From: Candidatus Gastranaerophilales bacterium
Lineage (GTDB): Bacteria > Cyanobacteriota > Vampirovibrionia > Gastranaerophilales > Gastranaerophilaceae
NCBI GenBank assembly: GCA_944325555.1
Contig: CALVAN010000002.1
Coordinates: 62,001-126,000 of the forward strand
Direction: 5' to 3'
Length of the DNA stretch: 64,000 bases
Under the pieces are notes generated by a model, which saw nothing but the letters and a program-made list of their open reading frames with translations, had not been told where the DNA came from and searched no databases. Positions 770 through 2,293 of the stretch are shown one piece after another; position 1 is the first letter of the stretch, and each line of letters begins with the position of its first letter. Made by a program: the position numbers and the translations under genes.

Positions 770-2173
770 TTAGTTTTCTGACTTTTCTGCCCCTTCTGAA
801 TTTTTGAGAGCTTCAAGCTCTTTTAAAATTCCCTGATTAATTTCCAGAACATCAACCCCGAGATTTGCCAGAACCTGCATAGCAACGGAATCCGGTGTTT
901 GTGTAATAGCCCATAGAAGGTTTTCTGATTCGATTTTGGAATTTTTATGCTTTTTGGCTTTTTCCCAGGCAATTTCCAGAATCTTTTTGGCTCTGTCGGA
1001 AAATACAATCTCGCCGAAAGTATAGGAGTTTCCGTAGCCGAGTACTCTTTCAACCTCTATACGTGCATCTTTTGTTGTAACCCCCAGTTGAGAAAGTACT
1101 CTTGCACCGATACCGGCACCTTCTCCCAGTATGCCGAGCAGTATAAACTCGCTGCCAACGATATTACGGTTCATCGACTGAGCCTCTCTTTTGGCAAGAC
1201 GTAGTATAGTAAGGGTTTCCGGCATTTGTTTTTCTATCGGTTTTATGATTTTGTGTGCAAGGTCATCATCAACAATATTCAACTCTTTAAATATATTGTA
1301 GGCAATACCGCTTTTTGCCTTTAAAACGCCGAGGATAATATGTTCGGGTTTTACGCTGGCAGACCCGAGTTCTTTTGCTGTTTCAAATGCAAGGAGCATT
1401 GTTTTAAAAGCATTCGGGGTAAAGATGATTTGTTTTTCTTCAAATTCCGCTTGGCGGGAAGAAATTTCCTGCAGCTTTGAACAGTAATTATCAAGATTGA
1501 TGCCTGACTCATTCAAAAGCTTTGTTATGTCGGAATTAGAATCTTCAAGTATGGATTGAACAATTTGTTCAGTGCCCAAAATCTCGTAATGTGACGCAGT
1601 AAGCTTTGCAACGGCTCGCTCAAGTATAGATTGCGCTTCTTCCTCTTTAAAAATGGATTGAATAGTGGAATACTCACTTTTCGGCTCTTTCCTTTCCAGT
1701 TCCGGATGTAGCATATTGCGTTTGTCATTTTTTGCAATAAGTGTTAAGAGTGTTTGTTTTAATTTTTTAATATCTGCTATGTATTCTTTAAAATCTTCCG
1801 CAATTGAAGGAACTGCTTTTTCGCCAATCATAATTAAAGCAAGCAGTATATGTTCCGGTCTTATATAAGATTTTGTACGTTTGGTTGCAAGCTCTGAGGC
1901 TAATTTGATGATTTTTTGAGATTCTATGCTGAAGGCAATATTTGTGTGTTTAAACTCATGCGACACATTTTTGTATTTTGAATATACATATTCTCTGAAA
2001 GTTTCGGGCTTCATTCCGCCGTAAGTAAGAAGACGTGAACATATATTGTTCTTGGTTTCCAGTATTCCAAGCAAAATATGCTCAGGGTAAATTTTATATG
2101 TTTGTGAGTCTGCTGCTTCTTTTTGTGCTGTTGCAATAATGTTTATTGCCTTTTCCGTAAAACGTTCGAACAA
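770..2173 (-). CDS. ATPase-less protein made of three tandem Clp_N double domains (467 aa)
   Basis: The sequence is built from Clp N-terminal repeats, the substrate- and adaptor-binding module of ClpA/ClpC/ClpB. The first double repeat covers about residues 1-145, with the signatures RFTEKA..., PEHILLGIL and RPEHILLAL. The second, more divergent, covers about 185-315 and contains KPEHIILGVL. The third covers about 316-455 and contains GSEFILLGILGEGAG. There are no Walker A/B motifs and no AAA+ module, so it cannot unfold proteins itself. A plausible role is adaptor, decoy or competitor for a ClpC/ClpP machine, which is inference. The start is a TTG with AAAGGG 7 nt upstream; no ATG fits the first domain. 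It is transcribed alone, convergent with the small gene to its left. Confidence 0.85.
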   Translation of the reverse strand: MFERFTEKAINIIATAQKEAADSQTYKIYPEHILLGILETKNNICSRLLTYGGMKPETFREYVYSKYKNVSHEFKHTNIAFSIESQKIIKLASELATKRTKSYIRPEHILLALIMIGEKAVPSIAEDFKEYIADIKKLKQTLLTLIAKNDKRNMLHPELERKEPKSEYSTIQSIFKEEEAQSILERAVAKLTASHYEILGTEQIVQSILEDSNSDITKLLNESGINLDNYCSKLQEISSRQAEFEEKQIIFTPNAFKTMLLAFETAKELGSASVKPEHIILGVLKAKSGIAYNIFKELNIVDDDLAHKIIKPIEKQMPETLTILRLAKREAQSMNRNIVGSEFILLGILGEGAGIGARVLSQLGVTTKDARIEVERVLGYGNSYTFGEIVFSDRAKKILEIAWEKAKKHKNSKIESENLLWAITQTPDSVAMQVLANLGVDVLEINQGILKELEALKNSEGAEKSEN

Positions 2174-2293
2174 AATTTTACCCTTTCATAATAAATGATG
2201 CCAAAAACAATTTCTTTATATTATTGTTTCACAATTTATAAGTTTTGCAAAGCTTTTAATTTGTTTTTTATAAACTTTTTGTTGATGAGGCGG

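Follow-up and report, generated by a model that had tools for sequence, protein, structure and literature searches.

The window analysed here, a stretch of 64,000 nucleotides from a Candidatus Gastranaerophilales genome, contains at 770-2173 (-) a complete ORF that starts with TTG and encodes a protein of 467 amino acids. Clp_N was the sole Pfam family above the cut-off and matched in six stretches (160.7 bits, E=8.9e-48), and a pattern search of the protein found neither of the Walker motifs (A, B) nor the motif for docking to ClpP, [IVLM]G[FL]. Compared with ClpA/B/C (Hsp100 class I unfoldases), the protein possesses the N-terminal double Clp_N domain three times over and lacks the AAA+ module, leaving Clp_N alone. 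The coordinates given in an earlier note on this DNA were correct, and its description of six Clp N-repeats forming three double domains without an ATPase is borne out by Pfam, the motif patterns and an AlphaFold2 model. The gene is organised as follows (fractions refer to an alignment of 42 sequences):

2181..2186 (-): Shine-Dalgarno-like AAAGGG upstream of the TTG start, from direct reading of the sequence
770..2173 (-): complete triple double-Clp_N gene, 467 aa, TTG start, stop codon at 770-772
1730..2173 (-): D1, residues 1-148, with the ClpC-like start xFExFTEKA and the pocket Glu E31 (39/42) and E107 (42/42)
1643..1729 (-): D1-D2 linker, residues 149-177, of low model confidence
1268..1642 (-): D2 body, residues 178-302, with the pocket Glu E202 (42/42) and E277 (40/42)
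1175..1267 (-): D2-D3 junction, residues 303-333, near-continuous helices around the IIKPIEKQMPETLTILRLAK motif
803..1222 (-): D3, residues 318-457, with E342 (42/42) and the K85-type K396 (42/42); E417 is not conserved

The TTG start (window 2171-2173 (-)) is found in 62 of 68 orthologous loci throughout the order (L042-L105, L182-L187), whereas ClpC starts with ATG. This conserved weak start may hold expression down or rely on translational coupling. The neighbours of the gene in the window, which precede it, are purB, an unknown gene and ribD; none of them is a clp gene.

The AlphaFold2 model, which was built from the 42-sequence alignment (mean pLDDT 79.9, pTM 0.52), consists of three double Clp_N modules. 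The D1-D2 linker is poorly predicted and probably flexible, and D2 is connected to D3 by near-continuous helices (302-316 and 318-333). Because the pTM is low, the relative orientation of the modules in this model is uncertain, the junction apart. Using Foldseek, one module could be superposed on ClpC N domains at about 1.2 Å, with an rmsd of 1.1-2 Å for the best matches. The fold matches include the pArg-bound ClpC NTD (5hbn), the ClpC1 NTD in complex with cyclomarin, rufomycin and ecumicin, and structures of ClpT2 and CLPT4 (4y0c, 7eko). A solved structure with the triple arrangement was not found by Foldseek, the TMq of about 0.3 corresponding to coverage of one module. Within the alignment, the mean majority fraction is highest at the D2-D3 junction (0.90), followed by D2 and D3 (0.75 each) and by D1 (0.59), the most variable of the three double domains. 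D3 is the one nearest to the ClpC N domain of the host (37-38% identity).

In Staphylococcus aureus ClpC, the NTD residues T7, R9 and K85 together with the E32/E106 pockets keep the inactive resting state in place through contacts with the M-domain and AAA1, and binding of pArg and adaptors to the same sites leads to activation (PMC12583610). The corresponding pocket Glu is retained in five of the six repeats of the triple protein at the frequencies listed above, and at E417 in 14 of the 42 sequences: D1 and D2 have Glu at both the E32- and the E106-type position, and D3 keeps the E32-type only. T7/R9-type residues are present in D1 (T6, K8) and lost in D2 and D3. The K85-type residue is K396 in D3 and lost in D2; in D1 it is usually K, with Q in the window, and at the R122-type position R is not kept in D1, D2 or D3 of the aligned sequences. 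The earlier note had proposed a comparison of the pArg-binding Glu residues, with the loss of all binding-pocket residues speaking against its reading; the Glu residues are largely kept. Judged from the alignment, parts of a ClpC-like regulatory face persist, spread across the three modules, where the residues could act as they do in ClpC; the conserved Glu may also be structural. Altogether, the protein resembles the ClpC NTD (Hsp100 class I) in its fold, the repeat pair, the GTE/PEH pocket Glu and the FExFTEKA start of D1, but differs from ClpC in having three NTD copies and a conserved D2-D3 junction and in lacking AAA+ modules, M-domain and ClpP loop.

Full-length orthologues are present in all 23 sampled congeneric genomes (78-95% identity). 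In the family, 136 of 146 sampled genomes carry a full-length copy and three a partial one; among the seven genomes without an orthologue, several are small or incomplete. The rest of the order Gastranaerophilales, whose members are relatives of the cyanobacteria from the gut and the environment, contains the orthologue in 19 of 22 sampled genomes, and no full-length orthologue was detected in the 79 sampled genomes of sister orders of the class, where the matches listed were ClpC-type or other Clp_N proteins only. The same holds for a phylum-wide sample, in which all 81 genomes outside the family were without a full-length match among the matches listed. Comparison with four relatives resulted in dN/dS values of 0.012-0.038, a ratio that is only indicative with synonymous sites near saturation, but which points to strong purifying selection and led to the rejection of a pseudogene.

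To trace the origin of the gene, a tree of 74 double domains was calculated, which has few alignment columns and deeper forks that are unresolved. The D2 units unite in a single clade across five families of the order, the D3 units do so in another, both with strong support, and the D1 units, too, cluster by position and not by genome. As all three group by position rather than by genome, the triple form was most likely already present in the ancestor of the Gastranaerophilales, and the gene appears to have been inherited vertically through the order. A recent duplication of the host ClpC NTD is ruled out by the same grouping. NCBIfam reported a similarity of D1 to ClpB profiles, and the ClpB branch falls inside the D1 group of the tree. 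Both are most likely long-branch effects, and a ClpB-derived D1 was dropped as an explanation, because the D1 units of the order's other families resemble ClpC (FERFTEKAIKV). The domain itself is ordinary; it is the arrangement that is unusual and lineage-restricted. The triple protein is a candidate marker for the Gastranaerophilales.

Larger Clp_N arrays exist in a large-genome sister family of the same class, where five of six genomes examined have 18-24 Clp_N matches. These proteins, which consist of Clp_N only and reach 1187 amino acids, occur as several divergent paralogues per genome with one to seven double domains, and their units fall outside the D2 and D3 clades of the tree:

L178:3152-6712 (-): array with the 1187-aa protein, which adjoins clpC; seven double domains were delimited for the tree, and Pfam resolves 10 repeats
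L179:1272-5025 (+): split array ORFs immediately upstream of clpC
L180:1413-4630 (-): array
L181:1157-6291 (-): array

The position of such arrays beside clpC argues for NTD arrays acting together with ClpC. The arrays share with the triple protein the ATPase-less tandem Clp_N organisation, but vary in domain number, are divergent and have multiple paralogues per genome; within the class, where building such arrays is a broader tendency, the triple protein is the extreme that is fixed and conserved. The earlier assessment that three tandem copies are unusual therefore holds only in part: only the Gastranaerophilales have the triple form, but larger arrays are found in the sister family. One genome of the array-bearing family (G245) has ten ClpP-domain matches (contigs 99, 105, 304, 249, 102, 206, 22 and 23), compared to two in the host genome.

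At 49 of 64 loci, the triple Clp_N gene sits between a DUF1292 gene and tilS, with median gaps of 3 bp and 0 bp, respectively. The order of this family cluster is ClpX-zinc-finger-only protein, HEAT-like F1, RuvX, DUF1292, triple Clp_N protein, TilS and Hpt. In the host genome, the first four genes of the cluster lie together elsewhere (G000 contig 3) without the triple Clp_N gene. The genus of the host lacks the DUF1292/TilS linkage, and in sampled other families of the order the gene lies apart from the block. Eight relatives have clpP downstream in the same orientation, at a distance of about 2-4 kb; across the order, the gene is not generally linked to clp genes. We regard gene linkage as suggestive but not decisive for function, and the neighbourhood was set aside as proof because the RuvX-DUF1292-TilS-Hpt cluster is found at family level only. 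The stand-alone ClpX-type C4 zinc-finger protein (about 90-110 aa; L061:3530-3784 (+), L199:7586-7918 (-)) occurs order-wide beside F1, RuvX and DUF1292 and is a second case of a Clp receptor domain separated from its ATPase. F1 (L061:3769-5298 (+), L199:5942-7570 (-)) is a conserved protein of about 530 amino acids that shows weak similarity to HEAT and contains beta structure in its middle domain; its AlphaFold model (pLDDT 87.6) has a HEAT-like start and no confident match in the PDB.

The host genome encodes a separate full ClpC of 822 amino acids, which retains E31, E106, K85 and the NQEF motif of the M-domain, together with a ClpB-like ORF of 872 amino acids and two ClpP. ClpS is the standard adaptor of ClpC and ClpA. 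It was not found in the host genome, while five control genomes were positive. An ATP:guanido kinase/protein-arginine kinase domain (PF00217) was found in none of 11 genomes of the class including the host, whereas the mcsB control of Bacillus subtilis matches at 1e-79. The absence of ClpS and of an arginine kinase removes ClpS titration and pArg reading as leading explanations. Titration of adaptors, as put forward in the earlier note, is ruled out for ClpS and would need some other adaptor. Another of its proposals, binding of arginine-phosphorylated proteins, agrees with the Glu conserved at E32/E106-equivalent positions in most repeats and with the pArg-bound NTD (5hbn) as fold match. It is nevertheless very improbable, given that the kinase is missing, that a T7-type pocket residue is present in D1 only and that the host ClpC keeps the same Glu without a kinase. 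This suggests that the Glu is kept for another reason, for example resting-state docking or fold stability. The parts are ClpC-type N domains without ATPase, and a role in trans with ClpC was judged plausible.

Among characterised proteins, mycobacterial ClpC2 and plant ClpT1/T2, both ATPase-less, come closest. ClpC2 has been studied best among the bacterial homologues that consist of an NTD only; it keeps cyclomarin from ClpC1 by sequestration, and its single NTD-like domain follows a separate N-terminal domain that dimerises (PMC10030653). The triple protein is likewise a ClpC-NTD-like partial ClpC homologue without ATPase (sequence match to 8ad9 and 9p2p), but has three tandem double domains from residue 1 and no dimerising extension. 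By analogy, it could protect ClpC as a decoy or sponge for small molecules or peptides that target the NTD, as ClpC2, which is induced by cyclomarin-type peptides, does for cyclomarin A, and the match of D3 to the ClpC1 NTD complexes with cyclomarin, rufomycin and ecumicin fits this idea. However, a gene that is kept almost universally and under deep constraint throughout the order looks like a housekeeping gene, and the invariant D2-D3 junction would not obviously be needed, so that we consider a sponge unlikely. The plant proteins ClpT1/T2 are NTD-like without ATPase and modulate Hsp100 ATPase activity (PMC4243950). Their binding partners are the ClpP ring and Hsp100 chaperones (PMC4243950; PMC7966870), and the description of ClpT restricts it to algae and plants (PMC7966870). 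ClpT1/T2/T4 share the double Clp_N motif without ATPase with the triple protein, ClpT2 and CLPT4 are among its fold matches (4y0c, 7eko), and two ClpP are available in the genome. ClpT differs in being plastid-specific, in sitting on the ClpP ring and in having one double domain, with 20-23% identity to the triple protein over the match. That the triple protein is an accessory subunit, belonging to the ClpP ring or to ClpCP and aiding assembly or competing with the chaperone for docking, is nevertheless quite unlikely: its sequence similarity to ClpT is detected but weak (E=3.7e-9 for 4y0b) and lower than that to plant ClpC1 (3.9e-41), the ClpP-docking motif is missing, and ClpT is confined to algae and plants in the description cited above. 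Since domain number, sequence similarity and lineage differ, we did not file the protein as ClpC2 or ClpT, though it plausibly works like these. The tight packing between DUF1292 and TilS-Hpt in most of the family (49 loci) would also fit a role outside Clp proteolysis, for instance in translation or nucleotide metabolism. Such a role is hardly likely, as the gene functions without this linkage in the window's genus and in sampled other families, and as the same operon includes the ClpX-zinc-finger-only protein.

We favour the reading that the protein, three ClpC-type N domains in a separate chain without an ATPase, would regulate ClpC/ClpP in trans and not unfold substrates itself, and give this about an even chance. 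This is supported by the retained regulatory residues, the order-wide constraint, the presence of ClpC and two ClpP in the genome, the arrays beside clpC in the sister family and clpP nearby in eight relatives. Counting against it are the window neighbours, which are not clp genes, the loss of the R122-type contact everywhere, and the loss of T7/R9-type residues in D2 and D3 and of the K85-type residue in D2. In ClpC, the N domain binds substrates and adaptors with the same sites that anchor the resting state against M-domain and AAA1. Three such domains in a free chain would accordingly be expected to engage the same ligands or docking surfaces; D2 and D3 would do so as a rigid pair, and D1 on a tether. 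The outcome could be a shift of ClpC between resting and active states or a multivalent presentation of substrates.

Should the triple protein act on ClpC, the chaperone would have a multivalent and conserved regulator made from its own receptor domain. This would also be a natural setting in which to test the recent idea that NTD ligand sites are at the same time resting-state anchors, in a lineage apparently without the textbook adaptors. A wider reading, possible but on the doubtful side, is that the Vampirovibrionia moved the ClpC receptor function into multivalent NTD arrays which replace ClpS/McsB and set the resting/active balance of ClpC in trans. The cluster found in much of one family pairs the triple Clp_N gene with that of the detached ClpX zinc-finger protein. 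Literature linking Gastranaerophilales with the Clp protease was not found.

A phage origin or a defence role was rejected, as there was no relative in viral contigs, no PADLOC family and no viral fold match; phages gave only partial, ClpC-NTD-like matches to the triple protein. The mycobacteriophages Phabba and Myrna encode ClpC-NTD-like proteins (NC_054714.1:151772-152377 and NC_011273.1:152928-153317).
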